64,000 nt of DNA, from assembly GCF_022170825.1 (NCBI RefSeq), contig NZ_CP081878.1, positions 2,692,001 through 2,756,000 on the forward strand, written 5' to 3'. Below the pieces are notes generated by a model that saw nothing but the letters and a program-made list of their open reading frames with translations, ran no database searches and was not told the DNA's origin. This DNA comes from Exiguobacterium acetylicum. GTDB lineage: Bacteria; Bacillota; Bacilli; Exiguobacteriales; Exiguobacteriaceae. The position numbers were made by a program, and so were the translations under genes. The first letter of the stretch is position 1. Each line of letters opens with the position of its first letter. Below, one piece after another: positions 13,814 through 33,015 of the stretch.

Positions 13814-13825
13814 GGTGGGTTCCTC

Positions 13826-15175: not shown

Positions 15176-16199
15176 CTTGGATTTCCTCCTTCAGCAAGTA
15201 GTGACTCTCATACCAGTCGATGAATGCATTAACTCCCGCTTCGACCGTCGTCTGTGGTCGGTAGCCGATCGTCTCGAACAAGGAAGTGACGTCAGCAAAG
15301 CTTTCTGGAACGTCACCTGGTTGAAGCGGCATCCCATTTTTAATTGCCGTCTTCCCGAGACGCCGTTCAATCAAGGCGACAAATTCGTTCAGTCGAATTG
15401 GGCTGTGACTGCCGATGTTGTAGACACGGTACGGAACATTGCTGCGATCCGGCAACGGATTTGAAGCATCGAACGCTTCGTCGACTTGCGGTTCAGTCTG
15501 GAACAGGCGATAGATGCTTTCGATGATGTCGTCGACGTAAGTGAAGTCTCGCCCCATCTCGCCGTAGTTGTAGAGATCAATCGGTTCGCCCTTCGCAATC
15601 GCCTCTGTGAACTTGAACAATGCCATATCCGGGCGTCCCCACGGACCGTAGACGCTGAAGAAGCGAAGGCCTGTCGTCTTAATCCCGTAAAGGCTGCTGT
15701 AGGTGTGTGCCATCAGTTCATTCGCTTTTTTTGAGGCGGCGTAAAGACTTAGCGGATGATCGACGGCATCCGTCGTCGCGAACGGCATCTTCGTATTCGA
15801 TCCGTAGACGGAACTTGAGGAAGCGTAGATCAATTGTTCAACTGGATGATGCCTACAGGCTTCAAGAATCGAGAGAAAACCGACGATATTTGACGTCATG
15901 TAGACGTCCGGTCGATCGATGCTGTATCGTACGCCTGCTTGTGCTGCCAGATGGAGAACGAGATCGATTGATTCCTGTTCAAAGATCCGCGCGACGGCTG
16001 CCGTCTCTTCGAGTGAGACCCGGTAAAACGTGTAGTTCGTTCCGAGTTCAGCGAGCCGGGCTTCTTTTAACGTCGGGTCGTAATAGTCGTTCACTTCATC
16101 GAGTCCGATGACTCGGTAACCCTCCCGGATGAAACGACGTGCGGCGTGAAATCCAATGAAGCCTGCGATACCTGTAATTAAGATCGTTTTATTCAGCAC
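15165..16199 (-). CDS. NAD-dependent epimerase, UDP-glucuronate 4-epimerase type
   Basis: 344 aa from a GTG start at 16199, eight bases behind AGGAGGT and 11 bp inside the preceding gene; longer in-frame starts lack a site. Extended SDR: ITGIAGFIGFHAA for NAD, Y.AASKK as the catalytic YxxxK, and the block [18 protein letters not shown] that marks the CapI/LpsL UDP-glucuronate 4-epimerases. A paralogue lies at 62334-63356. It would supply UDP-galacturonate or an amino relative for the EPS. Confidence 0.85.
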   Translation of the reverse strand: MLNKTILITGIAGFIGFHAARRFIREGYRVIGLDEVNDYYDPTLKEARLAELGTNYTFYRVSLEETAAVARIFEQESIDLVLHLAAQAGVRYSIDRPDVYMTSNIVGFLSILEACRHHPVEQLIYASSSSVYGSNTKMPFATTDAVDHPLSLYAASKKANELMAHTYSSLYGIKTTGLRFFSVYGPWGRPDMALFKFTEAIAKGEPIDLYNYGEMGRDFTYVDDIIESIYRLFQTEPQVDEAFDASNPLPDRSNVPYRVYNIGSHSPIRLNEFVALIERRLGKTAIKNGMPLQPGDVPESFADVTSLFETIGYRPQTTVEAGVNAFIDWYESHYLLKEEIQDGA

Positions 16200-17475: not shown

Positions 17476-17487
17476 CTTCTTCCCTCC

Positions 17488-18747
17488 TTAGCTGCTTTGT
17501 TCGACGACGAGGGCGACGTCCCGTGGATATAAGGACCGATACAGTGCTGGTAACAGTAGGACGATCTGAGTGACGGCGCAGAGTGTGTAAGCGATCGTCG
17601 CTCCGTACAGCCCGTACAGCGGAATCAACAAGCTACACGCGACGAGATTGACGACGACACTGCCGAAGATCGAGATCGTCTGGATCCGAAACTGTTGGAA
17701 ACCGGTCAGGAGTGCCTGAATGACGGTCGAATTGTAGAAAAAGAGTGAGGCAACCATCATCAAGACGAAAATCAGATGGTACTGAACGAACGAAGCATTG
17801 TAGAAAATCGTCAAGCCCCACTTCCCAAAGAAGATCGCTCCGATAATCAACAGGATTCCGACGACGTTCGTCATGACTAACATCGATCGCGTCAACTTCC
17901 GCAGTTCTGGCAAACTTTGACGCTCACCGGTCTCAGACGAGAAGTTCGGTAGTAAGACAGCGATCAAGGAGTGTATGAATAGACTTCCGAGTACGAGTAG
18001 ATAGGCGATACTGGCGTAGTACCCGAGCTCTTCTGTTCCGATTGCGTGCCCGACGAACAATCGCGGGATGTTTGCGTTCAAGGCGATCAGGAGAGCGACG
18101 AATCCGAGTGGCATTGCTTTGAGGAACAATTCCTTGCCTGACCGGTACCGTAAGTCAAGCGCTTGGTTGTCAAAACCACGACCGACCCGGCGAATTGTCG
18201 GCAAGTCGTATACGAGGAGCATGATCAAGTTCCCAGCAATTAAGGCGAGCACGAAACCGTGAATCGAATGGGTCGTAAAGAGGACGAGTGCTGCGCCCGA
18301 GACGTTCAAGAGACTACGGAAAATCTTTGAGACAGCGACTTCCTTGAAAGCGGTGTGTCCTTGCAAGAAACCATATGCGAGGTCTGCGAACGACTCCATG
18401 TATTTATTGAGATAAACGAGTAACGTCAGGAGTAAGATGTCCGCTTCACCAAAGAAGTAATAGATACCGAGTAAGACAAACACGCCTGCTGAGAGGAGCG
18501 AAAAACGCGTTTTGATGAAGAGCCAGAAGTTCGTCAGCCCAGCCCGTTCTGCCGTCAGGATCGTACTGGCATTGAGCCAACAGAACATGACGATCGGTGC
18601 GGTGATGGCAAGGGCGTAGTTGAAATAACCGATGTTGAGCGGTGTGCTCCATTTGATCAGGAGCGTCAAAATCATCCATTGATGCAGTGAATAGGCGGTA
18701 TCGGCAATGAAGATGAGATTGAAGCGGGACAGCCGGGCTGTTTTCAT
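17488..18747 (-). CDS. Wzx-type polysaccharide flippase (PST/MATE-like)
   Basis: 419 aa with about twelve membrane helices evenly spread and few large loops, the pattern of the polysaccharide transport family. Typical features are the N-terminal NLIFIADTAYSLHQW-like helix and the repeated Gly/Pro-rich helices. It should flip the undecaprenyl-linked repeat unit across the membrane. AGGAGG precedes the ATG; close spacing on both sides. Confidence 0.82.
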   Translation of the reverse strand: MKTARLSRFNLIFIADTAYSLHQWMILTLLIKWSTPLNIGYFNYALAITAPIVMFCWLNASTILTAERAGLTNFWLFIKTRFSLLSAGVFVLLGIYYFFGEADILLLTLLVYLNKYMESFADLAYGFLQGHTAFKEVAVSKIFRSLLNVSGAALVLFTTHSIHGFVLALIAGNLIMLLVYDLPTIRRVGRGFDNQALDLRYRSGKELFLKAMPLGFVALLIALNANIPRLFVGHAIGTEELGYYASIAYLLVLGSLFIHSLIAVLLPNFSSETGERQSLPELRKLTRSMLVMTNVVGILLIIGAIFFGKWGLTIFYNASFVQYHLIFVLMMVASLFFYNSTVIQALLTGFQQFRIQTISIFGSVVVNLVACSLLIPLYGLYGATIAYTLCAVTQIVLLLPALYRSLYPRDVALVVEQSS

Positions 18748-18762
18748 CGTTTTCCCTCCTCT

Positions 18763-20628
18763 CTATTTGCGAGCGATCCGCATCGTTGTCGCGACTGGAT
18801 CGATATCGGTCTCGTTCGTGATCCCTAACAAGTACTGGCGAAGTGCCTCATCCTGTCCAAGCGTTTGGGCAATCTCACGCAAGTACGGGTCGACGGATCC
18901 GAAGGGACGTGTCTTACCGACGAGAATTTTGTCGAAGACGAGTTCGTCATGGACCTCATCTCGAGCGAGTAGTTCCTCATACAGTTTTTCACCTTTTCGA
19001 ATCCCGCTGTAGACGATCGGGATCTGCTCTTCCGTGAAGCCACTTAAGTGAATCAAGTTCTTCGCCAGTGTCGTGATGTGAACTGGTTCGCCCATGTCGA
19101 GGACGAAGACTTCGCCACCTTTTGCGAGAACACTTGCTTGGATGACGAGACGACTCGCTTCCGGGATTGTCATGAAGTAGCGCGTCATCCGCGGATCCGT
19201 GATCGTAATCGGTCCGCCTTTGGCAATTTGTTCTTTAAAGAGTGGAATGACGGAACCGCGGCTACCGAGGACGTTCCCGAACCGAACGACGGCGAACGTC
19301 GTCTCGCTGTTACGGGCCATCTGTTGGATGATCATCTCGGCGATCCGTTTCGTCGCGCCCATCACACTCGTCGGATTGACGGCCTTATCGGTCGAGATCA
19401 TGACGAATCGTTTGACACCAGCTGCTTCTGCTGCTCGAGCGACGTTGCGTGTTCCGTAGATGTTGTTCTTGACCGCTTCGCTTGGATTATCCTCCATCAG
19501 CGGCACGTGTTTATGGGCTGCTGCATGATAGACGAGATCCGGTTCGAAACGCCGCATGACTTCAAGCATCCGGTCACTGTCTTGTACATCAGCGATGACG
19601 GATTCGAACTGGATGTCCCGACTAAGACACTCGAGCTCCCGGCGAATCAAGTAGATGCTGTTTTCACCGTGTCCGAGGAGAACGAGTCGTTCAGGACGGA
19701 AACGAATCAGTTGCCGGCAAATCTCGGAACCAATCGAACCACCGGCACCGGTGACGAGAACGGTCGCACCGTGGACACTTCGCTCGATTTCTGTAATATC
19801 GAGCTCGACGGGTTCGCGACCGAGTAGGTCAGCGATCGAGACTTCACGGATCTGTTTGATGGAGACTTTTCCGGACGCCAGTTCGACGAGCATCGGTAAC
19901 GTATGCGCCTCGACCTGCGTCTGTTTGATTCGGTTCAGCAGTTCAATTCGTTGCGGGTAAGGTAAGGATGGAATCGCCAGGACGACCGCTTCGATTTTTT
20001 GTTCCTCGATGATGCATTCGAGTTGATCGATTGCTCCGATGACGGGAACACCGTGAATCCGCATTCCGCGTAGTTCGAGCGAATCGTCGAGGAGTCCTAC
20101 GACATTTAAGATATGCGATTTCTTTTGCTTCAGTTCTTTTGTAATCATCTGACCGGAAGCACCGGCACCGATGATCAGCGTTCGTTTACCGAGCGTCTTA
20201 TGATCTGGGACGAGTCTTAAACTACGTCCACGAATCAACAGCCGGACGAATAAGATCCCGTTTAGGACAAGCCCTGTTTGCAAGAAAATCGCCCGTTCGA
20301 CAGCGAAGTCGAACAACGCGTATTCAAGACCAAGTAAGACGAAGCTGCTGGCGAGGACGACGACGAGTAAAACAGCGAGATCACGTAGACTTGCGTAACG
20401 CCAGATGATTTGATAGAAGCGCATCCAATGAGCGACGAACGTAAGGGCAACCCACTGGATGAGGGCGATTTCGAGTGCATCCTGCAACTCGAAGTTGACG
20501 GTGAGATGGAGTGGATTGAAGAAATAAAACGTCACTACGGTCGCGAGTGCGATGATTCCGGCGTCGATCAGGCGAAGGAGTCCGATCTTCAACTGCCGAC
20601 GGTACGGGGTGAGCGGGGAATGCTGCAT
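18763..20628 (-). CDS. epsC: Membrane-bound nucleotide-sugar 4,6-dehydratase (PglF/CapD/EpsC-like)
   Basis: 621 aa. Four N-terminal membrane helices (to about 120), a first Rossmann-like domain, then an SDR domain with VTGAGGSIGSEICRQL (about 290) and ISTDKAVNPTSVMGATK. In PglF-type enzymes the usual catalytic Tyr is replaced by Met in VMGATK and TDK forms the active site; both features are visible. The reaction is UDP-GlcNAc to UDP-4-keto-6-deoxy-GlcNAc, the substrate of the aminotransferase at 8535. GAGAGGAG precedes the ATG. Confidence 0.9.
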   Translation of the reverse strand: MQHSPLTPYRRQLKIGLLRLIDAGIIALATVVTFYFFNPLHLTVNFELQDALEIALIQWVALTFVAHWMRFYQIIWRYASLRDLAVLLVVVLASSFVLLGLEYALFDFAVERAIFLQTGLVLNGILFVRLLIRGRSLRLVPDHKTLGKRTLIIGAGASGQMITKELKQKKSHILNVVGLLDDSLELRGMRIHGVPVIGAIDQLECIIEEQKIEAVVLAIPSLPYPQRIELLNRIKQTQVEAHTLPMLVELASGKVSIKQIREVSIADLLGREPVELDITEIERSVHGATVLVTGAGGSIGSEICRQLIRFRPERLVLLGHGENSIYLIRRELECLSRDIQFESVIADVQDSDRMLEVMRRFEPDLVYHAAAHKHVPLMEDNPSEAVKNNIYGTRNVARAAEAAGVKRFVMISTDKAVNPTSVMGATKRIAEMIIQQMARNSETTFAVVRFGNVLGSRGSVIPLFKEQIAKGGPITITDPRMTRYFMTIPEASRLVIQASVLAKGGEVFVLDMGEPVHITTLAKNLIHLSGFTEEQIPIVYSGIRKGEKLYEELLARDEVHDELVFDKILVGKTRPFGSVDPYLREIAQTLGQDEALRQYLLGITNETDIDPVATTMRIARK

Positions 20629-21623: not shown

Positions 21624-22892
21624 ATGTTAAAATCAGCCAATATACCCACATCGTTTACCTTATCCATCCTAGTCGTTTGGATCATGCTCGATGCCTGGAT
21701 TCGTCCTTTAGCCTTCACGGACGAAGTGTTGCCGAAACAGTGGTCCCTTTGGTTGCTTCCCGTATACATTCTTCTATTCAGTCTCTGTTGGGTCATCTTA
21801 CAACCGTTCTATCGCGTCAACCGTGCAACAGGACATCAAATCGCACTTATTTTTCTGATTTATCTGACATTTCATATCGTATTTTTCTTTTTTAACGCGA
21901 ATACGGATCGTATTCTTGCTTCGCTTTATCTCATCTCGACTTGGCTTTTCGTTGGCATCGTCACTTCGCTCTCGCGTACATCGATCGACCAATGGCATCG
22001 TCTTCTCTATTACTTCCTTTACGGACAAGCCGTCTTTCTCGCTTCCTATGCACTCATCGTCTCATTTGGTTCAGAGTATGTTCCGATCGAAAACCTGCAA
22101 TGGCTTCAGATCGGTCCTTTGTCGTTTCCTCAGTTGTACGTCGGCGAACAAGGCTCATTCCTTCGCCTTGCTGGTCTGATGAACAATCCGAATACGTTTG
22201 CGGCCTGGCTCGTTCCGGGAGGGCTGTTCGCCTGGTTCTATCTGCTCAAACAGTTCCCCCGTCGGCAAAGCTTTCTGCACGCCGTCTTCCTATCTCTGAT
22301 CATTATCGCTTTACTCAGAAGCGGTTCGCAGACAGGAATCTATTCTTTTCTCCTTCTTGCTCTTTTGACGAGTATTCGAATGGTTCCGGGAACGAGACGA
22401 CGGTTGCAAGTAACGGCCTGTTACGTGACGGGAAGTCTGATTCTTCTCATCGTCTTTGCGTTTGAAGGACTGCTTCCTCGTTTGCTCAGTCTCAATGGAC
22501 GATTTACGCTCTGGCAGGCAGGATGGCGGGCTTCCGCTGACGCACTCTGGTTCGGACACGGCATCGGGAGTGCACCACGCGGACTGCAGGAACAACTAAA
22601 CGAACAGGTTCTCTATACGTTTCACAGTACACCGATCACCTATCTCTATGAATTCGGACTCATCGGTTGTCTCCTGTACGGCGCAGTCTTTCTGTATCTG
22701 TTGTATCGACTCTTTCGCATTCAAACGACGGACCTTGCTTTCCTTGCCCTGTTGCTTACTGGATGGCTCGGGTTGCTCCAATTCACGGAAAGCATTCTCG
22801 TCCGACCGAGTGGTTTTTATTTCATTTGGCTCAGCCTTCTTGCTTATACGTCGCTTCGTCGACTTCCACCTCACGACAGTACCCACACCTAG
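21624..22892 (+). CDS. O-antigen ligase/polymerase-like membrane protein (Wzy_C domain)
   Basis: 422 aa with ten to twelve membrane helices. The central part contains GLMNNPNTFAAWLVPGGLF, a hydrophobic LRSGSQTGIYSFL helix and a large loop with WQAGWRASADALWFGHGIGSAP, the pattern of Wzy_C proteins that polymerise or ligate lipid-linked glycans outside the membrane. It is read opposite to the EPS operon. The ATG lacks a clear ribosome site at normal spacing (GGGTGGA is far upstream), so the start is less certain. Confidence 0.75.
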   Translation: MLKSANIPTSFTLSILVVWIMLDAWIRPLAFTDEVLPKQWSLWLLPVYILLFSLCWVILQPFYRVNRATGHQIALIFLIYLTFHIVFFFFNANTDRILASLYLISTWLFVGIVTSLSRTSIDQWHRLLYYFLYGQAVFLASYALIVSFGSEYVPIENLQWLQIGPLSFPQLYVGEQGSFLRLAGLMNNPNTFAAWLVPGGLFAWFYLLKQFPRRQSFLHAVFLSLIIIALLRSGSQTGIYSFLLLALLTSIRMVPGTRRRLQVTACYVTGSLILLIVFAFEGLLPRLLSLNGRFTLWQAGWRASADALWFGHGIGSAPRGLQEQLNEQVLYTFHSTPITYLYEFGLIGCLLYGAVFLYLLYRLFRIQTTDLAFLALLLTGWLGLLQFTESILVRPSGFYFIWLSLLAYTSLRRLPPHDSTHT

Positions 22893-22920
22893 AGCACCTA
22901 CACGAAAGGGGTATGACATC

Positions 22921-23679
22921 ATGAAGAAATGGACAGAACAACAAGTCATCGATAGCCTAATCGAAGCTAGTATCGAATATCCCGCTCTCGACGCAAAGAC
23001 GTATGCGCGCTGGTCGATCGGAAAAGACATTCCGTCGATCACGACGATTATCAATGTATTCGGCTCTTGGCGTGAAGCACTCCAAGCTGCTGGTCTCTCA
23101 TCGATCCGTCCTTATTTCTCTGACGAAGAGATCCTTGCTTTCATCAAGGAAGCGTCAACACGTCTCCACCCTTTCCATAGCAACAGCTACCGGGAATGGG
23201 CAAAGGCGAAACATGGACCATCCTTGACACTGATCAACTTACGTTTCGGATCATGGTCACGCGCACTCGAAGAAGCGCACATCGAGATGACACGTTCCAT
23301 CTCGATGACGGAAGAACGGATCATCACAGCCTTACTCGAAGCTTCTGATGTCCTCCCCCGTCTGACGACGCAGACGTATGCAATTTGGGCACAGGAAAAC
23401 GGACATCCGACAGTCGCGACGATTGCCCGTAAATACGGTTCATGGGCTGATGCCCTCGCTTGCCTCGACATTGCACCGCCTCGCCGGAAATGGGTCGAAG
23501 AGGATGTCCTTGAAGCACTACGGCAGGCGCAAGAAGAATTACCTTCTCTCAGCATCATTCATTACCGAAAATGGGCAGAAGGTCGCTCGGTTCCGAGCAC
23601 CTCAACGATCAATGCCCTCTTTGGTAGCTGGACCTCTGCCGTGCAATGCCTCAAGCGTGCACGCGTCTCTCTTTCCTGA
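22921..23679 (+). CDS. Second protein of four homing-endonuclease-associated repeats
   Basis: 252 aa from ATG 22921, nine bases behind AAAGGGG; longer frames run back into the preceding gene. Four repeats of about 60 residues with TYARW/SYREW, PS or PT, then VFGSW, RFGSW, KYGSW and LFGSW. The third repeat shares PTVATIAR.YGSW with the paralogue at 7768-8511, and the two align in the same register over their whole length. No nuclease domain. It follows the Wzy-like gene by 28 bp and is probably co-transcribed with it. Confidence 0.75.
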   Translation: MKKWTEQQVIDSLIEASIEYPALDAKTYARWSIGKDIPSITTIINVFGSWREALQAAGLSSIRPYFSDEEILAFIKEASTRLHPFHSNSYREWAKAKHGPSLTLINLRFGSWSRALEEAHIEMTRSISMTEERIITALLEASDVLPRLTTQTYAIWAQENGHPTVATIARKYGSWADALACLDIAPPRRKWVEEDVLEALRQAQEELPSLSIIHYRKWAEGRSVPSTSTINALFGSWTSAVQCLKRARVSLS

Positions 23680-24754: not shown

Positions 24755-25279
24755 TTAAAAGTGATGCCTGTTCTTTTCGTGCTGCAAGGAAACACTTCCT
24801 GCTTGGCGTCGTACTTTTTTCCTATAGACGAGTAGAAAACATCCGATTCCGATCAAGGCACCGGTCCCATCGAGTAAGACATCTTGGATGAGTCCCGTCC
24901 GGTCCCCTGTCAAAATCTGATGGAACTCATCAAAGACAGCGACCATAATCGCTAACGAATAGGCAAACAAGACGGCCAGTCCTAGCGTCAGGCGACGACG
25001 TGTCAAATCGATCAATCCGATCCCTAATGCGAGAAACGTCGAGACATGAGCTGCTTTTCGGATGAAAAACTCAATGAAGCCACTTCGTCCAAGTGCATCG
25101 ACACTGACTTCTCCATGATACGAGAAGGAAATAAAACGCAGATGATCGACGAATCCTAACGGGATGTATCGTGATAATCCTGGTTTGATGGATTGTGCCT
25201 GATATGGCATCGAACTTGAGATGAAGAGGATCAATAGAACGGCAAGGACAATGTAGCCGGACCACGTAATTTTTTTCAT
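24755..25279 (-). CDS. VanZ family membrane protein
   Basis: 174 aa, four to five membrane helices. FSSMPYQ near the start, FFIRKAAHVSTFLALG and FDEFHQILTGDRTGLIQDVLLDGTGALIG are the VanZ signature (R-K-x-x-H and D-E-x-H-Q). VanZ proteins confer low-level teicoplanin resistance in some hosts; most chromosomal copies have unknown function. A paralogue is at 37567-38079. AAAGGAG precedes the ATG. Confidence 0.85.
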   Translation of the reverse strand: MKKITWSGYIVLAVLLILFISSSMPYQAQSIKPGLSRYIPLGFVDHLRFISFSYHGEVSVDALGRSGFIEFFIRKAAHVSTFLALGIGLIDLTRRRLTLGLAVLFAYSLAIMVAVFDEFHQILTGDRTGLIQDVLLDGTGALIGIGCFLLVYRKKVRRQAGSVSLQHEKNRHHF

Positions 25280-25403
25280 GAAGACACTCCTTTTTTTAGT
25301 ATCACTTTAGAATAGTATGAGTGGAAACGACAAACGATTCCTTCTAAAATTCAATTTCTAGTTTAACCCATTTCATTTTTTTAGTTTCCTTGAAAAACGA
25401 TAT

Positions 25404-25431
25404 TTTACATTTCACAGGTTTCTTTTATAAT
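25404..25431 (+). promoter_or_regulatory. SigA-type promoter of the XRE regulator gene
   Basis: TTTACA at 25404-25409, a 16-base spacer and TATAAT at 25426-25431, about 55 bp before the regulator start. Confidence 0.65.
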
Positions 25432-25486
25432 GAAAGTGGTTAATTAGTACTATACACGATGACCTGAAGAATAGGAGTGGAGTGCC

Positions 25487-25906
25487 ATGAACCGTGCACT
25501 AGGTAAAAAAATCATGCAATTGCGCAAACAACACAAGTATACTCAAAAGTTTTTGGCTGAACGCTGTGGTGAATCAGCAACGGACATCTCCGCTTACGAA
25601 CGTGGTCAGCGCATGCCCTCTCCTCAAGTCCTAGAACGCTTGGCTCTTGCTTTAGACACGACGGTCATTGATCTCATCGATCCGAAGTATGTACAGCATC
25701 CTTCGTTGAATGAATTCATGCAACAAGCGCTTGAACCATCGCAACCGCTTGATCTGAAGCTCATTCTCGAGGACCTACTCGTTCATCTTAGTCTATCAAA
25801 GGAAATTTATTTCGATGGGCGCCTCGTCTCACCGAACGTCCGGGATGAGATGGCGACGTCTATTGACCAAGCATTAAAACGCGGGCTTTCTTCGATTGAG
25901 GCGTAA
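25487..25906 (+). CDS. XRE-family regulator, SinR-like
   Basis: 139 aa. An HTH_3 domain spans residues 6-60 (KIMQLRKQHKYTQKFLAER, then the recognition helix TDISAYERG and the PSPQVLERLA helix). A 75-residue C-terminal helical part could dimerise or bind a partner. Short XRE proteins of this kind include SinR and SlrR, repressors of matrix genes; being near an EPS locus makes that link attractive but unproven. Own promoter; GGAGTGG precedes the ATG. Confidence 0.75.
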   Translation: MNRALGKKIMQLRKQHKYTQKFLAERCGESATDISAYERGQRMPSPQVLERLALALDTTVIDLIDPKYVQHPSLNEFMQQALEPSQPLDLKLILEDLLVHLSLSKEIYFDGRLVSPNVRDEMATSIDQALKRGLSSIEA

Positions 25907-25946
25907 TAAAAAATGGGATCAAAATCAGCTGATTTTGATCCCTCTT
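25905..25946. terminator. Palindromic intrinsic terminator
   Basis: A perfect 28-bp palindrome at 25915-25942 (GGGATCAAAATCAG and its complement) with a T run when read on the minus strand. It separates the regulator from the convergent hypothetical gene. Confidence 0.85.
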
Positions 25947-25947
25947 C

Positions 25948-26259
25948 TTATTCCGTTTGGACGATATGGTCGATGTACAATTGACCGTCTTCATATGTCG
26001 CTTCTAGAAGCTTGCGAAAAAACGTATTCTCACTTGTTTTCTCGGATACGAATACACGCGCGTAACGCTGATGCGCCTGCGCGAGTACGCTGAATTTCAG
26101 AGTACGAGCAGATGAAGAGAAGAACAATTGTCGACCGGGATGCCCAAAGGCGTCTGTTACTTTCGATTCTTCTAAGAAGTGAAAAGATTCATCTGGAAAC
26201 AAGGTCTCAATGAACGATAAACAGCTTTGCTGAAAGGTACTTCCGCTCTGATTTTCCAT
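25948..26259 (-). CDS. Hypothetical protein, 103 aa
   Basis: Starts with ATG behind GAGGAG. Soluble, aromatic-rich, mixed alpha/beta pattern, no signal peptide or motif recognised. Ends in the palindromic terminator shared with the XRE regulator. Confidence 0.6.
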   Translation of the reverse strand: MENQSGSTFQQSCLSFIETLFPDESFHFLEESKVTDAFGHPGRQLFFSSSARTLKFSVLAQAHQRYARVFVSEKTSENTFFRKLLEATYEDGQLYIDHIVQTE

Positions 26260-26400
26260 GATGTGTCCGGCTCCTCTTTCTCATGATGTACTTCGAATCG
26301 TGAAAAGGAAACTACTGTATCACATTACCCAGTCTTTAGACCTATCCAAACCAGTATATTACATATAATTTTAATTGTATCGTTACATTATATTATTTGA

Positions 26401-27138
26401 CTACTGTTTCTCGAATTCCAGCACCAACATTGTTTTCCCCTCATACAGAAACTGTCCCTGATAGCGTGATAACGTCGCAAATTCAAACAACGTTTTCGGT
26501 TCGTACAAATATTCGACCGCATAACTGACCTTTTCCTCTTGCCCCAATTTGAGATAGGCGTTGAATAATAAACGTTCGCCATCAATGTGGTAGCCATAGA
26601 AGAGCAATGTCTTTTGAAAACGTCGTGTCGCGATCGGATGTGCGATCGATCTCAAGTGATCGACGTGATACAAGGACACGAGCAATCGTCCGCTCGGTCG
26701 CAATAATTGACGGATGTTTCGGAAGAACAACAACAGCTCCCCGCGCGTATAACGTAAAATCGTCGTTCCCGGTAAGATAATCCGGTCAAAATACTCAGGA
26801 CCGACGACATCCGTTATGTCATGACTCCACCCGTAAATCTTATGCTGATACTTCTCCGCAATCTGTTTCGTCCGCGTAGCTTCCGGTTCGATCAGATAAA
26901 GATCATAGCCTTCATCAGACAAGAGATTAAATAGCGAGGGATCAAACGTGCCATGAAACAGAATGCTCTCTCCTTTTTGTAGATAACGTCGGTATAACAT
27001 CAGCTCATCAACTTCAGTAAGTTGCTGCGCTTCTTGATACAGTTGACCGAATCGTTCATCCGCTTGGACATGATCCAGCACCTGGACACGCGAGTAGCTA
27101 CCTTTGCGTAAGAATGGACCGAATAAGACGTCACCCAT
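26401..27138 (-). CDS. Class I methyltransferase-like protein, 245 aa
   Basis: The middle looks like a Rossmann-type methyltransferase: ESILFHGTFDPSLFNLL in the place of the SAM-binding glycine loop, EGYDLYLIEPEA as motif with the acidic ribose-binding residue, FDRIILPGTTILRY, then a helix and RPSGRLLVSLYHVDHL. The glycine motif is poor (HGTFD), so activity is uncertain. It overlaps the 401-aa gene by 8 bp and is the last gene of the small-peptide operon, which suggests a tailoring or partner role there. Confidence 0.6.
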   Translation of the reverse strand: MGDVLFGPFLRKGSYSRVQVLDHVQADERFGQLYQEAQQLTEVDELMLYRRYLQKGESILFHGTFDPSLFNLLSDEGYDLYLIEPEATRTKQIAEKYQHKIYGWSHDITDVVGPEYFDRIILPGTTILRYTRGELLLFFRNIRQLLRPSGRLLVSLYHVDHLRSIAHPIATRRFQKTLLFYGYHIDGERLLFNAYLKLGQEEKVSYAVEYLYEPKTLFEFATLSRYQGQFLYEGKTMLVLEFEKQ

Positions 27139-28336
27139 GATACATCAACTCCTTGTAATGCTGAATCGCTTCTGCATAATCTGCGCCGAGCCGCTCCGGT
27201 AACACGTCGAACTGTTCCTTTTGATCCGCTTCAAGAATCCAAAGGAATGCTTCGTTCGTCTCAAATAACCGTAATGTCGTCCGGTTGAAAGCAAAACAGC
27301 CTTCTTCGTTTTGAATGCCGATCAATGTCAACGGTCCAATCCGTCCGGACGTCCGTGGCAATTCGAGATCGGAGTACGGTGTGATGAAACGACTCGTACC
27401 CTGAAACGATCCTGCCAGTTGATACAAAAGAGGAAATAGCTCCAGCTCGGTTTGCGACGCGAGGGGTTCCGGTTGTGGTTGCTGTTCCCGGAACGACTCG
27501 ATATCAACAGAGATGTCCGCACTCAACTGAATCGTCTTCTGGCGATCGGCGTAAATCCCGTCTGCAAAAAAGAACAGTCGATGCGAGACGCGTAAGCCAC
27601 TTAACGTCGCATAATCGAGTATCCCCATCGAATGATCGTTTCGAATCCGTCCCGTTTGTTGCCAATCCTTTAATCTTTCCGCAAGCGCATCACGCGACAA
27701 AACGGTCAGCTGTGACTCAAGCGACGGAGAGAGGCGATCAGAAAACGTCAATAGAATTGGTGTTCGACTCATCAGTTCGATGATCGGTAGATCGTGACGC
27801 ATCGGGTGATCAAAGTAGATGACGCTATTGATCGTCATCGCTCGGAAATTACTAGCTGGAATCTGGTCCAGTAACGAGCTATCCTCAATGTAGACATGAC
27901 GTAACGGTTGCGGATGGTGCGGCACAGATGCTGGGTAAACACCCGTCATCAACGAGAGAAGCGCATGATGGACAGCTGGAACGGATGCAGAAGCAGGCAT
28001 TTCTTCTTGCGGTAAGACGAGACCATTCAAGAAATCAGGTTGTCCGAACAGCACTTCTCCATTCGGACGAATCAGATGGAACTGGACGTGCAGCATCTCA
28101 TGTTGTAAATACGCGACGAGCCGTAACGTCCGCTCGCCTTCTCCTTGGAGGACGAAGACGTAATGTTCGTACTCCTGAAAATCCATATAATCGAGTAAAT
28201 CATGGAATGTATGCGTATCGTAATCAAAAGCGTCGAGTGAAATACGGTGCGTCTGGCAAAAAGTTTGCAGGTCGGTCGACGGAAGAGAACGTTGTAGCCA
28301 GCCGTCTTGTTCCGATAAAAGCGATAATCCGATCAT
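27131..28336 (-). CDS. Unknown 401-aa protein downstream of a small peptide gene
   Basis: Strong GAAAGGAGAG site before the ATG. Soluble, about 401 aa, rich in His, Gln and Leu, no recognised catalytic motif. The last 65 residues (GCFAFNRTTLRLFETNEAFLWILEA-like, given here only in part as FNRTTLRLFETNEAF) recall the small winged-helix peptide-recognition domains found in RiPP enzymes, but this is a weak resemblance. Located between the 48-aa peptide gene and the methyltransferase-like gene, in one operon. A role in peptide maturation or export is inference. Confidence 0.6.
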   Translation of the reverse strand: MIGLSLLSEQDGWLQRSLPSTDLQTFCQTHRISLDAFDYDTHTFHDLLDYMDFQEYEHYVFVLQGEGERTLRLVAYLQHEMLHVQFHLIRPNGEVLFGQPDFLNGLVLPQEEMPASASVPAVHHALLSLMTGVYPASVPHHPQPLRHVYIEDSSLLDQIPASNFRAMTINSVIYFDHPMRHDLPIIELMSRTPILLTFSDRLSPSLESQLTVLSRDALAERLKDWQQTGRIRNDHSMGILDYATLSGLRVSHRLFFFADGIYADRQKTIQLSADISVDIESFREQQPQPEPLASQTELELFPLLYQLAGSFQGTSRFITPYSDLELPRTSGRIGPLTLIGIQNEEGCFAFNRTTLRLFETNEAFLWILEADQKEQFDVLPERLGADYAEAIQHYKELMYHG

Positions 28337-28368
28337 GCCCTCTCTCCTTTCTCGTTAAGTGATTGAAA

Positions 28369-28404
28369 AAAGGGCTTCATTCTAATAGCCGAATGAAGTC
28401 CTTT
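28369..28404 (-). terminator. Terminator/attenuator between the small peptide gene and the 401-aa gene
   Basis: Minus-strand hairpin: AAAGGACTTCATTC pairs with GAATGAAGCCCTTT (one mismatch), followed by a T run. It lies inside the operon, ten bases after the peptide stop. Such leaky terminators are common directly after precursor genes, giving more peptide mRNA than enzyme mRNA. Confidence 0.7.
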
Positions 28405-28413
28405 TTGCGTGCA

Positions 28414-28560
28414 TTAAGCCGATTTGACGTTTGCCTTAGGTTTCGTAGCAGTCCGGTCCATTTCCCGATGAGCGAGGGGGGCGACGGAGACGGTAGCAGG
28501 ATTAAGACACCAAGCGCAAGAAGTCATGTTACGTCGCGTTTCTTTTAAGATGAGTGTCAT
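28414..28560 (-). CDS. Small Cys-containing peptide, 48 aa (candidate precursor peptide)
   Basis: ATG at 28560 lies seven bases behind AAAGGGG, a strong site. The product begins MTLILKETRRNMTSC, has a CAWC pair at residues 15-18, and a tail rich in Pro, Ala, Thr and Lys. There is no signal peptide or membrane helix. It is first in a minus-strand operon with the 401-aa and methyltransferase-like genes, divergent from the PlcR-like regulator, and is followed by a terminator. These are the hallmarks of a ribosomal peptide precursor, yet no known class matches. A small regulatory or zinc-binding protein is an alternative. Confidence 0.55.
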   Translation of the reverse strand: MTLILKETRRNMTSCAWCLNPATVSVAPLAHREMDRTATKPKANVKSA

Positions 28561-28603
28561 GGTTGTACCCCTTTCTGAATCAAGTGAGATGGTCGTTGAA
28601 ACA

Positions 28604-28661
28604 TTGATACGAAATCAAGTAAATCAGTAGTATCTAGTCTTGTTCGCTTCTATAATAGAAG
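28604..28661. promoter_or_regulatory. Palindromes in the divergent promoter region of the PlcR-like gene
   Basis: Two inverted repeats sit between the divergent regulator and peptide operon: TTGAT-ACGAA-ATCAA at 28604-28618, and CTTCTATAATAGAAG at 28647-28661. The latter is a near-perfect 7-1-7 palindrome that contains TATAAT, a likely -10 of the regulator gene. Either could be an operator controlling both directions. Confidence 0.45.
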
Positions 28662-28707
28662 TTGATACCCTATACCAGTTCAATCTCCACGAAAGGACGA
28701 GGAGCCG

Positions 28708-29589
28708 ATGGATCAATTCATGTCACCGCAAATCGGCTTAGCATTACGCCGATTGCGGAAGAAACACAACCTGACCCAAAAAGATTTAGCGAACGGAATC
28801 TGCAGTCAAGCAGAGATTAGTAAGATTGAAAGTGGCACACATTCACCGACGGTAGAGTTGCTCTATGCACTATCGCGTCGATTGCAAGTGCCAATGACAC
28901 TTTTTCTTGATCATACTAATTTTAGAGAGTCACTTAAACTTTTAGATGAAAAACTACTACATCGATTTAGAAGTGGTGACTTCCAAGCACTACATTTTGA
29001 GACTCAAAAAATAATAAATTCAAGTCCCTTGGATGAAGAACTTAACCTACTTGTTCGATATTTCTACTTACTCAGTTCTTATAGGTTAGAAAAATTAGAC
29101 TATCGTACATGTATTATAGAATTACAGCAAATTTCAGAGAAATATTCATCACTTTATTATTCACCTAGTATGATACTTCGAATTAAATCGGCGATTGCCA
29201 TCCTTCATTTTGAGAATAAAAGTTATAAGCATAGTCGAATCGTTTATGAAGAACTAATGAATTTGGACTATGATAGCGATGAACTAATTCTTGAAAAAAT
29301 TCGAATACATTATAATTACTCGAAAATCTTACTAAAACTTAATGAAGTTCAGAAATCATTAGAGATCGTTCAAAAAGCAATTAATATTAGCCTGCTCAAT
29401 AAGAATATGTCGTTGTTAGGTCAACTTTACTCCCAAAAAGGTGAATGCCAAGAACTTTTAAATCATTCTCAAAAAGAAATTATGCATTCATACAAGAATG
29501 CCTTATTACTTTTTGATTTATTAAATATGAAAGAATACACTCAGATTATTTTAGACACAAAGTCGCACTTTGTAGTACTTGACCAATGA
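28708..29589 (+). CDS. PlcR-like quorum-sensing regulator (HTH + TPR, RNPP family)
   Basis: 293 aa; B. cereus PlcR is about 285. Residues 8-63 form an XRE HTH (LRKKHNLTQKDLA, QAEISKIESG, PTVELLYALSRRL). The rest is helical TPR repeats. The C-terminal stretch MSLLGQLYSQKGECQELL and the following FDLLNMKEYT closely match the remembered PlcR segments MALIGQLYYQRGEC and FDILEMHAY, and LDYRTCIIEL matches VDYEYCILEL. PlcR dimers bind DNA when the imported PapR peptide binds the TPRs. Here the convergent neighbour encodes PapR-like repeats, so it is the likely receptor pair. GAGGAG precedes the ATG. The TPR part is much more AT-rich than the HTH part. Confidence 0.88.
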   Translation: MDQFMSPQIGLALRRLRKKHNLTQKDLANGICSQAEISKIESGTHSPTVELLYALSRRLQVPMTLFLDHTNFRESLKLLDEKLLHRFRSGDFQALHFETQKIINSSPLDEELNLLVRYFYLLSSYRLEKLDYRTCIIELQQISEKYSSLYYSPSMILRIKSAIAILHFENKSYKHSRIVYEELMNLDYDSDELILEKIRIHYNYSKILLKLNEVQKSLEIVQKAINISLLNKNMSLLGQLYSQKGECQELLNHSQKEIMHSYKNALLLFDLLNMKEYTQIILDTKSHFVVLDQ

Positions 29590-29629
29590 TTCGCTTCACA
29601 GAGAACTCAAGTAACCTCTCTTAAGCTAA
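29588..29629 (-). pseudogene. Decayed sixth pheromone repeat beyond the stop codon
   Basis: Continuing the precursor's frame past its TAA gives LA*ERLLEFSVKR, which keeps the 14-residue period and the EFSVKR core of the active repeats. The stop falls where the Lys codon (AAA or AAG) should be. The relic reaches the stop codon of the PlcR-like gene. It shows the array once had at least six units. Confidence 0.7.
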
Positions 29630-29938
29630 ATCACGCTTTACCGAAAACTCGAATGGGATCTCTTTCGCTAAATCACGCTTCACTGAAAACTCGAATGGGA
29701 TCTCTTTCGCTAAATCACGCTTCACTGAAAACTCGAACGGGATCTCTTTCGCTAAATCACGCTTCACTGAAAACTCGAACGGGATCTCTTTCGCTAAATC
29801 ACGCTTCACTGAAAACTCGAACGGGATCTCTTTCGCTAATTGTTTACTTGAATCAATTGAATGAATAGATGTTGTGGCTAAGGTGATAGATAGAGTTATT
29901 GTTCCTAAAACTAAACCTAATTTCTTTTTCAAGTTCAT
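29621..29938 (-). CDS. PapR-like pheromone precursor with five tandem 14-residue repeats
   Basis: 105 aa. Residues 1-27 form a Sec signal peptide (MNLKKK, then a hydrophobic core); a short spacer follows, then five identical units LAKEIPFEFSVKRD (residues 34-103) and a final LA. PapR of the B. cereus group is a 48-aa secreted precursor whose processed C-terminal peptide ends in LPFEF (for example ADLPFEF); here KEIPFEF is repeated five times. So one precursor could yield five signals after cleavage behind FEF or at the KR pairs. AGGAGG precedes the ATG. Convergent with the PlcR-like gene. Confidence 0.88.
   Translation of the reverse strand: MNLKKKLGLVLGTITLSITLATTSIHSIDSSKQLAKEIPFEFSVKRDLAKEIPFEFSVKRDLAKEIPFEFSVKRDLAKEIPFEFSVKRDLAKEIPFEFSVKRDLA
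29630..29839 (-). repeat. Five 42-bp tandem repeats coding the pheromone units
   Basis: Five head-to-tail 42-bp copies, nearly identical at DNA level (GAACGGG or GAATGGG variants on the plus strand; the last copy has a TCGGTA change). Such an array can expand or shrink by slippage or unequal recombination, changing pheromone dose. It is not a CRISPR: no unique spacers. Confidence 0.95.
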
Positions 29939-30007
29939 ATAAATTACCTCCTAATTTTTTTCGTATGGCTTCGTAACAACATCATATAACCTTAGACCCC
30001 CTCTGAA

Positions 30008-30023
30008 TATTCGAATACGAATA
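30008..30023. promoter_or_regulatory. Candidate PlcR-type operator upstream of the pheromone gene
   Basis: A 16-bp inverted repeat, TATTCG-N4-CGAATA, 70 bp before the pheromone start. The known PlcR box is also a 16-bp palindrome, TATG-N8-CATA with outer TAT/ATA. Downstream on the minus strand a TATGAT-like -10 is seen without a good -35, as expected of an activated promoter. Confidence 0.5.
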
Positions 30024-30185
30024 ATTATGGTATTTTACACATTATTTTCATTTTCCATTACTATTGACGCGGGTCATATGTCCTGATTACTGTGTTTTTT
30101 TTACAAATCATCCATCAATATGTCGAACTTGTGTATGAAAATAGATTTTTTTGAATATTCCATCATGGTGAAATTCCGTAACAGA

Positions 30186-30229
30186 CAAAAAAAGAGCTCG
30201 TCCAACTCCTACGAGTCGACGAGCTCTCT
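30186..30229 (-). terminator. Intrinsic terminator
   Basis: AGAGCTCGTC and GACGAGCTCT form the stem; on the minus strand it is followed by a run of seven T. Ends the 57-aa membrane protein gene. Confidence 0.85.
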
Positions 30230-30403
30230 TCATTTTGAGGATTGTCGTAACGCAATGACGTAAAAGATACCGAGTACTACAATCACGCCTAGTAGTATCG
30301 AACTAATCGTCGTCCGAGTCGACGTATCCGGCATCCATATCCCAAGTCCTAAATTGATTGCTGCGATAATTAGGACGAGCCAAACAATCGTACGTGGTCG
30401 CAT
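30230..30403 (-). CDS. Small two-helix membrane protein, 57 aa
   Basis: ATG at 30403 behind GAAAGGAGC. Two hydrophobic segments (about residues 6-23 and 34-51) with a short polar loop (PDTSTRTT) and a Lys end. Strong ribosome site and own terminator support a real gene. No family recognised. Confidence 0.65.
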   Translation of the reverse strand: MRPRTIVWLVLIIAAINLGLGIWMPDTSTRTTISSILLGVIVVLGIFYVIALRQSSK

Positions 30404-30482
30404 ATCGAGCTCCTTTCTGGTCTACCCTGCCGTCCGATCACCGAATATGCTATGGTGGAAATAACGAAGGAGGTTCTGTTTC

Positions 30483-31064
30483 ATGAATAGACTTGCTGTA
30501 TTTTGTGGTTCTAAAGATGGTGCTAGCCCAGTCTTTCGCGAGGCTGCGGGGAAGCTTGGTCAAGCGCTCGCTGCGCACGGCATCGGACTCGTATACGGTG
30601 GTTCCCGCGTTGGAACGATGGGAGCTGTTGCGGACGCTACGCTCGCTGCTCAAGGTCAAGTCCTCGGTGTCTTGCCTCATTTTCTACAAGAAAAGGAACT
30701 TGCCCATCCGGGATTAACTGAATTACATCTCGTCCACTCGATGCATGAGCGGAAAGCAAAGATGTCAGAGCTTGCCGACGGATTCATCATTCTCCCTGGT
30801 GGTCCCGGTACGATGGAAGAGTTCTTCGAAGTCTTTACGTGGGCGCAACTCGGTCTACATGAAAAGCCCTGTGGTGTCCTTAACATCGACGGCTACTACG
30901 ATCCCTTGATCGCCCTATTCGATACGATGGAACGTCAAGGATTCTTGATTCCGGAACACCGCGCGATGTTGATCGTCGAGTCAGACCCCGATTGTCTCCT
31001 TGAACGCTTCGCGACGTATGAAGCCCCACACGTCAAAACATATATGGATCGCTCACAAACTTGA
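30483..31064 (+). CDS. LOG family protein (nucleoside 5'-monophosphate phosphoribohydrolase type)
   Basis: 193 aa. The family signature PGGPGTMEEFFE is complete at about residues 100-111, with GGSRVGTMGAVADA near 40. LOG proteins split nucleoside monophosphates into base and ribose-5-phosphate; in plants and some bacteria they release cytokinins. In Firmicutes (YvdD) a nucleotide-turnover role is assumed. AAGGAGG precedes the ATG. Monocistronic with its own terminator. Confidence 0.9.
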   Translation: MNRLAVFCGSKDGASPVFREAAGKLGQALAAHGIGLVYGGSRVGTMGAVADATLAAQGQVLGVLPHFLQEKELAHPGLTELHLVHSMHERKAKMSELADGFIILPGGPGTMEEFFEVFTWAQLGLHEKPCGVLNIDGYYDPLIALFDTMERQGFLIPEHRAMLIVESDPDCLLERFATYEAPHVKTYMDRSQT

Positions 31065-31069
31065 TGAAA

Positions 31070-31096
31070 GCGGAGTCCTCGACTCCGTTTTTTTTG
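31070..31096 (+). terminator. Intrinsic terminator of the LOG gene
   Basis: CGGAGTC-CTC-GACTCCG hairpin followed by eight T. Confidence 0.85.
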
Positions 31097-31175
31097 ATTC
31101 CTAACTCTTCCGATTCTACTTCTCTCTCGTTACTAGTGTTCTCCATGACGCTTTAGGATTCCTACTCTTCTGATA

Positions 31176-31206
31176 CAAAAAAACCAGATGCACGTTGGCA
31201 CCTGGC
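31176..31206 (-). terminator. Intrinsic terminator of tagGH
   Basis: Minus strand: CCAGGTGC, a short loop, GCATCTGG, then seven T, directly after the tagH stop. Confidence 0.8.
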
Positions 31207-31212
31207 TTACTA

Positions 31213-32166
31213 TTAAAAGAAATTCAAGATCGCATCGCTGAGATTCGTCAAAGACGGCGTTTCGTCAATGACCATCAAACTCCCGGCTGCCAGGACGATT
31301 AGACCAAGACCTGACAAGATCCAACCTGGATGTTTGACCGTATCCGCTGAATCCGCGTTTTCTTTACCTGACCGTGCATTGGCTGCTTGTTCTTTCAAGC
31401 GATCACGTCGGTATTGATGCTGTTCCTCTTTCGACCATTTCTTATATTCAGCGAGGAACTTCTTGTACTCTGGCAAGACATCTTTCGTCGTTCCGTCGAG
31501 CCGGACCTGACCGTACTCGAGCCAAACGACGCGCTCACAGAAACTTTTGATTTGCGAAAGCGAGTGACTGACGAAGATGATCGTCTTTCCTTCTTCTTTA
31601 AACTCGTTCATCTTATCGATACAACGGTTGTAGAAGGTTTGGTCCCCGACCGATAATGCTTCATCGACGATCAAAATGTCCGCGTCGACGTTGACGGCGA
31701 TCGCAAAACCGAGGCGCGACTTCATCCCACTCGAATATTTCTTGATTGGCTGATCGATGAAGTCACCAATATCGGCAAAATCGATGATGCCAGGCATCCG
31801 GCGTTCGATTTCCGCATCGTCCATCCCGAGCATAAGACACTTCAAGCGAATGTTCTCCCGCCCTGTCAGGACGTTCTTCAATCCTTGTGAGACGGCGATG
31901 ATCGCAACTTCACCGTTGATCGCGACGTCTCCTTCGTTTGCGTAGATGATGCCTGAAATCAAGTTCGATAACGTCGACTTACCGGAACCATTGATTCCGA
32001 CGAGTCCAACGACTTCACCTGATCCGATTTCAAGTGAGACGTCCCGTAGTGCAGTGAATGTTTTAACGCTCTTGCTTTGATTCTTGAACAAGAGCTTGAA
32101 TTTTTCTTTTGTAGTCGTGACCATGTCGAAGCGTTTCGTGACATGGTCGAGTTTAATCATAGACAT
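31213..32166 (-). CDS. tagH: Teichoic acid exporter ATP-binding protein TagH
   Basis: 317 aa. ABC ATPase with Walker A GINGSGKST (about 58-66), signature KYSSGMKSRL, Walker B ADILIVDEAL and the H-loop VSHSL. Like TagH it has a C-terminal extension after the ATPase, here a charged coiled stretch and one membrane helix (about 280-300). With TagG it exports wall teichoic acid, or a similar lipid-linked glycan, to the outer face. AAGGAAA precedes the ATG; 15 bp after tagG. Confidence 0.9.
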   Translation of the reverse strand: MSMIKLDHVTKRFDMVTTTKEKFKLLFKNQSKSVKTFTALRDVSLEIGSGEVVGLVGINGSGKSTLSNLISGIIYANEGDVAINGEVAIIAVSQGLKNVLTGRENIRLKCLMLGMDDAEIERRMPGIIDFADIGDFIDQPIKKYSSGMKSRLGFAIAVNVDADILIVDEALSVGDQTFYNRCIDKMNEFKEEGKTIIFVSHSLSQIKSFCERVVWLEYGQVRLDGTTKDVLPEYKKFLAEYKKWSKEEQHQYRRDRLKEQAANARSGKENADSADTVKHPGWILSGLGLIVLAAGSLMVIDETPSLTNLSDAILNFF

Positions 32167-32181
32167 GGCGATTTCCTTCCC

Positions 32182-32991
32182 TTAAACGAGCTCTGTGAAT
32201 GATTTACGGAACTTGATGTGCAAGAATGTTCCCGCTGTGAACAATAGGAGCGTCACACTCCAGAAGTACAGACCGGTCGGCCACTCCTGCCAGACCCAAT
32301 GCCCACCGAGCAAGCTCGCCCGGTATCCCTCGACGAGATAAAAGACAGGATTTAAACGAAGGACGCCGTGTAAAAAGTCCGGGAACCGATCAATGTTCCA
32401 GAGGATCGGTGTCATATAAAAGAGCATCCGCATCATCGATTGCAAGAAGAGCTGGATGTCCTTGACGAGTGTGATGAGTGTTGAAAAACAAAGTGAGAAC
32501 GCATAGACGAAAATGTACGTCGCGATCATATAATACGGCAATTGAAGTAACTTCCACGTGATTGGGATGCCATTTGCGATAATGACGATGAAGACGATCA
32601 AGAGCATCGCAAAATGTTGATACATCCGTGACAAGATGACATACGATGGAATCGCACTCATCGGGAAACGCATCTTCGTCACCATCGCGAGACGACTGTT
32701 GATCGAGTTCGATCCGCGAAGTAACGCATCATTAATGAAGAACCAGACGACGATCCCGCAAAGGAGCCAGACGATGAACGGAATGTCGCCATCCACGTTC
32801 TTATTTCCTTTAAGACCGACACCAAAGACGAACCAATAGATAAAGATTTGGAGACCCGGATTGAGGAGCTCCCATAAAAGGCCAAGGCGTTGCTCTGCAT
32901 GCGCTGATTTGATCTCATATCGCGCCAACCGGCGAATCAGAGGGAAATTCTCCACCTGTTCCCGGATGATACTTCTCATTTCTTTCAGCAT
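32182..32991 (-). CDS. tagG: Teichoic acid exporter permease TagG
   Basis: About 269 aa from ATG 32991 (MLKEMRSIIREQ), which has GGAAGG eleven bases upstream and matches the N-terminus of known TagG; the frame stays open to 33015 (277 aa), but that ATG has no site. Six membrane helices of the ABC-2 type; FVFGVGLKG, GDIPFIVWLLCGIVVWFF and RFPMSAIPSYVILSR match TagG strongly. Partner of TagH. Preceded by a long leader from the promoter at 33199-33227. Confidence 0.9.
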   Translation of the reverse strand: MLKEMRSIIREQVENFPLIRRLARYEIKSAHAEQRLGLLWELLNPGLQIFIYWFVFGVGLKGNKNVDGDIPFIVWLLCGIVVWFFINDALLRGSNSINSRLAMVTKMRFPMSAIPSYVILSRMYQHFAMLLIVFIVIIANGIPITWKLLQLPYYMIATYIFVYAFSLCFSTLITLVKDIQLFLQSMMRMLFYMTPILWNIDRFPDFLHGVLRLNPVFYLVEGYRASLLGGHWVWQEWPTGLYFWSVTLLLFTAGTFLHIKFRKSFTELV

Positions 32992-33015
32992 AAGTGTAAG
33001 TTCCTTCCGATTCAT

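Follow-up and report, generated by a model that had tools for sequence, protein, structure and literature searches.

The operon described here lies at positions 26401 to 28560 of a 64,000-nt stretch of the Exiguobacterium acetylicum chromosome (contig NZ_CP081878.1, positions 2,692,001 to 2,756,000; hereafter, the window), and encodes the peptide pep48 (48 aa) and the proteins p401 (401 aa) and mt245 (245 aa). It is a selected operon found across the genus and derived from a daptide-type cluster, that is, from a pathway for ribosomally synthesized and post-translationally modified peptides (RiPPs), but it has neither the substrate residue that defines the class nor, in the DNA examined, the enzymes that do. 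The homology of p401, mt245 and the precursor, the gene order, the losses in the DNA examined and the purifying selection are established. As to function, we consider it probable that the daptide-type operon, its known chemistry lost, was kept as an intracellular peptide-binding module. A first-pass annotation of the window had already listed the three open reading frames (ORFs), with coordinates that we confirmed, and the strong ribosome-binding site (RBS, agaaaggggtacaacc) upstream of pep48. Its suggestion of a RiPP ancestry was supported by a daptide-like leader and by relatives of p401 in daptide-type clusters, while its proposal of a new or unusual class of modifying operon was not: p401 is of the DapB type, and a dehydrogenase, an aminotransferase, an S-adenosylmethionine (SAM) motif and a C-terminal Thr were not found in the DNA examined.

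Table 1. Features at and around the pep48 operon (positions in the window).
Feature	Position	Strand	Evidence or remark
mt245: DapM-like, 245 aa, probable pseudo-methyltransferase	26401..27138	-	SAM motif I lost
p401: DapB-like, 401 aa, predicted C-terminal RiPP recognition element (RRE) at about residues 333-401	27131..28336	-	fold, tblastn, hhalign
Intrinsic terminator (hairpin + U-run) between pep48 and p401	28366..28406	-	18/18 species folded
pep48: daptide-precursor-like peptide, 48 aa, leader-like N-terminus	28414..28560	-
Palindrome CTTCTATTATAGAAG in the pep48/RNPP intergenic region	28647..28661	.	holds TATAAT on the regulator's strand; putative function
PlcR-like RNPP quorum-sensing regulator	28708..29589	+	RNPP_C 9e-38; PlcR 2QFC E 5.6e-33, full-length
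PapR-like pheromone precursor, 105 aa, five tandem repeats AKEIPFEFSVKRDL	29621..29938	-	Bacillus_PapR 1.8e-6
PlcR-box-like site TATTCGNNNNCGAATA upstream of the pheromone gene	30008..30023	.

The relatives of p401 that carry this assignment are found on plasmids. Using tblastn, p401 retrieved five plasmid records, two from Priestia (32.5% identity over the whole length, E 3e-69), one from Weissella confusa (24.5%, E 4e-11) and two from S. epidermidis (21%, E 7e-8); in hhalign, the Priestia, Weissella and Staphylococcus proteins matched with E-values of 7.5e-52, 4.7e-9 and 1.2e-7 for p401, and of 2.6e-28, 1.5e-7 and 3.9e-5 for mt245. In the four regions examined from these five records, the p401 relative is accompanied by a methyltransferase, a class III aminotransferase, a short-chain dehydrogenase/reductase (SDR) oxidoreductase and an ATP-binding cassette (ABC) pair, and the Priestia region additionally contains an M50 peptidase. 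The best NCBIfam models for the Priestia neighbours are daptide_amino, daptide_HExxH and daptide_MTase, and overall a daptide model is the best for both aminotransferases, both methyltransferases and the Priestia peptidase, always below the cut-off. Moreover, two or three small peptides, annotated or detected by an ORF scan, precede each of three distinct plasmid relatives, and one precedes p401 in all 19 Exiguobacterium genomes, which bears out the idea that a small peptide always precedes the 401-aa family.

In daptide biosynthesis, according to the consulted part of PMC10036551, MpaB is a domain-of-unknown-function (DUF) protein with a C-terminal RRE that binds the leader and passes the C-terminal Thr to the dehydrogenase MpaC, which is stringently selective for Thr; MpaD transaminates and MpaM dimethylates. 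In Bacillota, the clusters have an SDR-type oxidoreductase (consulted parts of PMC10036551 and PMC12670281). The plasmid relatives of p401 are named DapB on account of their position in the cluster and their RRE, and the p401 family belongs with these DUF-RRE (DapB) proteins of daptide-type clusters. The 401-aa protein had been described as being of no recognised family. This holds for the databases, since Pfam at E 10 gave no match in 17 of 18 members and a spurious one in the remaining member (E 0.5), and NCBIfam gave spurious names only (best 0.017), but it does not hold against the grouping with DapB proteins. The Priestia DapB is closer to p401 (33% identity) than to the other two plasmid DapBs (25% and 23%), which makes loss in Exiguobacterium simpler than repeated gain, the tree being small and unrooted. 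No relative of the Priestia DapB was found in the phage collection at 1e-3. A further daptide cluster, L212 (G095:C10:86000-105000), contains a YcaO (identified by eye), a methyltransferase above the NCBIfam daptide cut-off and, instead of a short DapB, an 815-aa protein with SPASM-like cysteines and a winged-helix-like end resembling a C-terminal RRE; this protein, for which no relatives were found among plasmids or viral contigs, was not used to support the DapB identity because of its hhalign probability to p401 (1.6%).

We then focused on the C-terminus of p401, where a peptide-recognition winged helix had been anticipated near residues 335-401. The model of the whole protein is weak (predicted local distance difference test, pLDDT, 69; predicted template modelling score, pTM, 0.62). 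Residues 314-401 modelled alone (88 residues) reached a pLDDT of 83 and a pTM of 0.72, with strands and helices in the order bbb-aa(a), the last two helices (2 and 3) being fused. The top nine Foldseek rows for this C-terminus were RiPP proteins (lasso B1, SuiB; E 0.09-0.61), and VIA-align returned 21 rows with Z >= 2.9, of which 17 are RiPP proteins of many classes and 4 are OmpR-type DNA-binding domains, while the remaining rows had Z of 2.3 or less. The best match was 5wgg (Z 6.9, root-mean-square deviation 2.1, 66 aligned), followed by 6jx3, 5v1u, 5v1v, TigE, PqqD, SuiB, ThcOx, PbtF, NisB, the McbBCD complex and TruD, which we take to carry RREs at the matched places. As modelled, residues 333-401 or thereabouts fold like an RRE, in agreement with its definition as a bbb-aaa winged helix (consulted part of PMC12710340). 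This predicted bbb-aa(a) fold is common to the RREs of PqqD, lasso B1, CteB, SuiB and NisB; in p401, unlike known RREs, the model runs the last two helices together, and no sequence match is detectable (none in the PDB at E 10). Using the whole p401, residues 110-330 gave scattered VIA rows (RNA methyltransferases, glycosyltransferases) with Z of 4.2 or less and no recognised relative. The first low-confidence model (pLDDT 69) had suggested a radical SAM/B12 enzyme, which was not borne out: an hhalign probability of 0.4% against ten rSAM_ocin_1-type proteins led us to drop the idea, and only one Cys is invariant in p401.

Regarding the precursor, pep48 has the conserved pattern SxGWCxNxAxVxVAPLAxRxM[DE]R followed by a basic tail, and residues S14, W17, C18, N20, V26, A27, P28, L29, R32 and M34 are invariant in 18 sequences. 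The CAWC pair previously pointed out is confirmed for its second Cys (W17 and C18 are found in 19/19) but not for the first, since Cys15 is present in 11/19 only. The peptide starts with MNL[TI]FKESRRTISSCGWC in two species and with MNLTFKESRRTMTSYGWC in others. The precursors upstream of the plasmid DapBs (n = 8, five annotated and three from Weissella chosen by eye) begin with a short leader, e.g., MNFKEISVQDLN or MRFEFKESNANHLN, and all eight end in Thr; pep48 ends in Ala (9), Ser (9) or Arg (1), never in Thr (0/19), and, unlike them, has no hydrophobic stretch after the leader. In one Priestia precursor the leader is followed by CGWC, of which GWC is common to pep48. When 601 unselected small ORFs from four loci were scored with a hidden Markov model (HMM) of pep48, this CGWC precursor came first (E 0.004), and 3rd and 7th place went to Weissella precursors; over all eight precursors the Mann-Whitney p is 4e-4, with the precursor-like ORFs of L212 scored as other ORFs.

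The methyltransferase-like nature of mt245 and its poor SAM loop had also been noted earlier, and both points were upheld. The mt245 of the window matches the daptide methyltransferase model of NCBIfam weakly (E 1.6e-4; 21 bits, where the cut-off is 175), a match also obtained for all 18 members examined, and GxGxG is found in 0/19. Where the Priestia DapM reads EIGSGNGR, mt245 reads, e.g., FHGTFDPS: the acidic residue and two of the three glycines of motif I are lost in 19/19, and the three Exiguobacterium proteins that were aligned have no FDY-type motif, so that, judged from these motifs, mt245 is probably a pseudo-methyltransferase. Still, mt245 retains one glycine of motif I as well as the acidic post-I residue, and this leaves room for a working RiPP pathway with new chemistry, in which pep48 is presented by p401 and its invariant core (e.g., W17, C18 or N20) is modified by an mt245 with an altered cofactor loop, giving a signal or an antimicrobial. 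The conservation of the peptide is in line with such a pathway, the core being its most conserved part (mean pairwise identity of 81%, against 68% for the leader and 43% for the tail; 18 sequences). However, a core fixed in all species is unlike that of a diversifying antimicrobial, neither a DapP protease nor a dedicated DapT exporter was found near the operon, where the only ABC ATPase is generic, and the motif losses in mt245 are those listed above. We regard this alternative as unlikely, though it merits attention.

The order pep48-p401-mt245 with the divergent regulator is identical in the 19 Exiguobacterium genomes, and the p401 and mt245 frames share 8 nt. Homologues of p401 are present in 19/19 genomes of the genus, 0/19 of the sister genus and 0/360 other Bacilli examined; mt245 shows the same distribution in the two genera, with partial matches in three other Bacilli (E 7-9e-4), and pep48 is found in 19/19 at E 1.2e-22 or better, the best sister-genus value (0.045) being at chance level. 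In the contig collection, all ten p401 loci with names are from Exiguobacterium, in a scan that detects close relatives only. Further weak matches to the pep48 profile within the genus (E 0.007 and up) were rejected as chance, several containing internal stops. The ratio of nonsynonymous to synonymous divergence (dN/dS; Nei-Gojobori, three clades) is 0.04-0.08 for p401, 0.045-0.07 for mt245 and 0.17-0.24 for pep48, determined in 18 of the 19 genomes (L037 omitted) after removing pairs with dS <= 0.02 or undefined; in clade B, 27 of 36 pairs were retained for p401, 21 for mt245 and 35 for pep48. Outside clade A, the mean dS of the proteins is 0.9-1.6 (above 1 in clade B), which is near saturation. 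Alignments A1 to A3 comprise 18 of the 19 genomes (L023, near-identical to L022, omitted), A4 comprises 15 and A5 13. Both p401 and mt245 are under strong purifying selection, and the pep48 frame, whose conservation in relatives had been named as decisive for the first-pass proposal, is conserved beyond chance, as shown by 19/19 frames, an AAAGG-type RBS in each and its dN/dS.

The terminator that had been placed after the peptide was likewise recovered, with a hairpin and a U-run separating pep48 from p401 in every species folded; L037, which has a longer spacer, was omitted. In E. flavidum, the most divergent species (L050/L037), this longer spacer contains a 59-aa membrane-protein-like frame. 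In the folds of the window (28337-28375), L020 and L021, the U-run of the terminator pairs with the p401 RBS. As pep48 precedes the terminator, it could be a mere regulatory leader ORF that controls it and is no partner of p401 or mt245. In support of this, its dS is unusually low (0.14 against 0.65-0.82 for p401 and mt245 in clade A), roughly three to seven times below the synonymous divergence of its operon partners, so that its nucleotides may carry a second constraint, or its expression may be very high. Nevertheless, its N-terminus resembles daptide leaders, the GWC is common to the Priestia precursor, its amino acids are selected, and no Rfam match was obtained at gathering thresholds in 25000-31500; a leader ORF alone is hence improbable.

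We next considered what the operon has lost in comparison with daptide clusters of Bacillota (Priestia megaterium pKNU_01_4, S. epidermidis and Weissella confusa). With these it has in common the precursor leader, the gene order peptide-DapB-DapM, a homologous protein in the DapB position and a homologous DapM; it differs from their complement (DapA-B-C-D-M-P-T) in having no nearby DapC, DapD or DapP, and no C-terminal Thr, hydrophobic core or DapM motif I. Unlike the plasmid clusters, it lies on the chromosome, and every sampled species of the genus has it. As queries for DapC, DapD and DapP, the plasmid SDRs, aminotransferases and M50 peptidase gave no tblastn match at E 1e-3 in the window, in the loci of 18 relatives (9.5-15 kb each) or on the second contig, C2. 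Remote relatives are within reach of this search, which in L078 picked up a distant aminotransferase, HemL-like by eye. The full daptide pathway might still operate with the remaining enzymes supplied in trans from other genome sites, given that the search covered the window, the 18 loci and C2 and that about 3 kb away (31213-33015) there is an ABC-2 type transporter pair. However, its generic ATPase is only about 21% identical to that of Priestia, and precursors with the C-terminal Thr for which MpaC is stringent (PMC10036551, consulted part) number 0/19; we find such a pathway slightly harder still to accept than the leader ORF. That the operon is a functionless, decaying relic, as the lost catalytic motifs and partners might suggest, is already contradicted by the conserved order, frames, terminator and low dN/dS, and is very hard to believe.

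Next to the operon, the peptide-responsive regulator recognised in the first-pass annotation is a helix-turn-helix protein with an RNPP C-terminal domain (Table 1). Mean pairwise identity is 89% in its first 65 residues and 51% in the remainder (13 of 19 sequences), which at sequence level indicates a conserved DNA-reading part joined to a fast-changing peptide-reading part. The PapR-like gene is complete in 17 of 19 genomes, partial in one and missing in one (contig ends); its product looks secreted, as judged by eye, and its tandem repeats are species-specific and number from two to about nine. The window and E. sibiricum 255-15 (L036) have KEIPFEF in common and regulators 78-79% identical, against 58-59% for p401, and for this reason the receptor-pheromone pair has probably been exchanged between clades. 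Upstream of the pheromone gene, 17/17 genomes have TATTCGTATTCGAATAT unchanged. Each of the 19 genomes has exact copies of TATTCGNNNNCGAATA, two in 17 genomes and three in the other two (L145, L146), with 0/19 for the reversed control. In 17 genomes one of these sites was seen at the pheromone gene (in the other two it is near a contig end), and a second is located 93-96 nt upstream of a 265-aa gene in all 19 genomes. This gene (G000:C1:1805726-1806520; L077 3724-4521, minus strand) is found in 19/19 genomes of the genus and 0/19 of the sister genus, a co-occurrence that is weak evidence because any clade-specific gene shows likewise; its product has no Pfam or NCBIfam match. From the position of the site, it is likely a target of the quorum-sensing circuit.

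In Bacillus cereus, the PlcR box is TATGNANNNNTNCATA, which TATTCGNNNNCGAATA does not match, resembling it in length and palindromy only. The system otherwise resembles PlcR-PapR in full-length regulator homology, a P-x-E-[FYH] pheromone core encoded beside the regulator and a 16-nt palindromic box at the pheromone gene; it differs in the tandem-copied pheromone, the box letters TATTCG/CGAATA and the two or three exact sites per genome. The proposed link between operon and regulator did not stand beyond adjacency, as the predicted box accompanies the pheromone gene and one distant gene but is missing from the operon, where the best PlcR-like sites over 19 intergenic regions have 3-5 mismatches and were not accepted. 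The palindrome CTTCTATTATAGAAG was also rejected as a regulon box, since its genome matches at two mismatches (13, against 19 for the reversed control) indicate no regulon. The Rgg-controlled radical SAM RiPPs of streptococci (RaS-RiPPs, tryglysin), as far as the source consulted in part describes them, likewise pair a gene for a small peptide with a regulator that responds to peptides; in Exiguobacterium no radical SAM enzyme was seen in the operon and the regulator box is not there. Elsewhere, the window contains polysaccharide-synthesis genes, a homing-endonuclease-repeat (HNH_repeat) protein and a phage-type integrase (11373-20628, 22648-23679, 45601-46434).

Several observations weigh against a daptide-derived peptide-binding module. 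The name DapB comes from context; the plasmid p401 relatives have no NCBIfam match at 1e-4, and the best NCBIfam names of the Priestia SDR are not daptide. In the G095 cluster, the 815-aa protein and the methyltransferase have no significant similarity to p401 and mt245, respectively (hhalign 1.6% and 6.8%, single sequences). Five of the eight daptide precursors rank only 54, 70, 97, 281 and 295 by the pep48 HMM. Foldseek nowhere reaches E 0.001 and all VIA Z-scores are below 8, which can reflect a common arrangement, although the list is specific. The degenerate motif I of mt245 is no proof of lost SAM binding, and the absence of DapC, DapD and DapP covers the window, the 18 loci and C2. Finally, with the predicted box absent at the pep48 operon, its position beside the regulator may have arisen by chance and been fixed by descent.

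Taking both sides together, we still favour a peptide-binding module left over from daptide biosynthesis. Its ancestor would be a Bacillota daptide-type cluster of which the precursor (pep48), the leader-binding DapB (p401) and DapM (mt245) would have been retained, whereas DapC, DapD, the C-terminal Thr substrate, the DapM SAM motif, the protease, the dedicated transporter and the hydrophobic core would have been lost. On the basis of the modelled fold, the p401 RRE would bind the pep48 leader, and mt245, from its motifs, may act as a catalytically silent subunit, the three forming a cytosolic peptide-protein complex; the internal terminator would yield peptide in excess over protein. Such a complex is probably regulatory or sensing, possibly for the adjoining PlcR-like circuit. 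The stronger proposal, an intracellular peptide-protein switch coupled to PlcR-like quorum sensing, in which all recognisable RiPP chemistry is lost and the parts are strongly selected, is tentative, and we lean somewhat against it.

In the literature, as far as searched, we found nothing pairing daptides with Exiguobacterium, or joining Exiguobacterium, RRNPP and quorum sensing, although papers naming Exiguobacterium and PlcR exist. A study of Exiguobacterium sp. KRL4, in the part consulted, describes RiPP clusters in the family as rare and mostly unique to single genomes (PMC8143284); unlike those, the pep48 operon is genus-wide. If our interpretation is true, the half of a RiPP pathway that recognises the precursor can outlast the chemistry and become fixed throughout a genus, RRE-based genome mining would have to reread finds of a precursor and an RRE without enzymes, and a cultivable genus would be at hand for studying an RRE-peptide pair without modification. 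Moreover, the adjoining PlcR-like system, with its many tandem-repeat pherotypes and its predicted regulon of two genes, represents a compact case of receptor-pheromone co-evolution.

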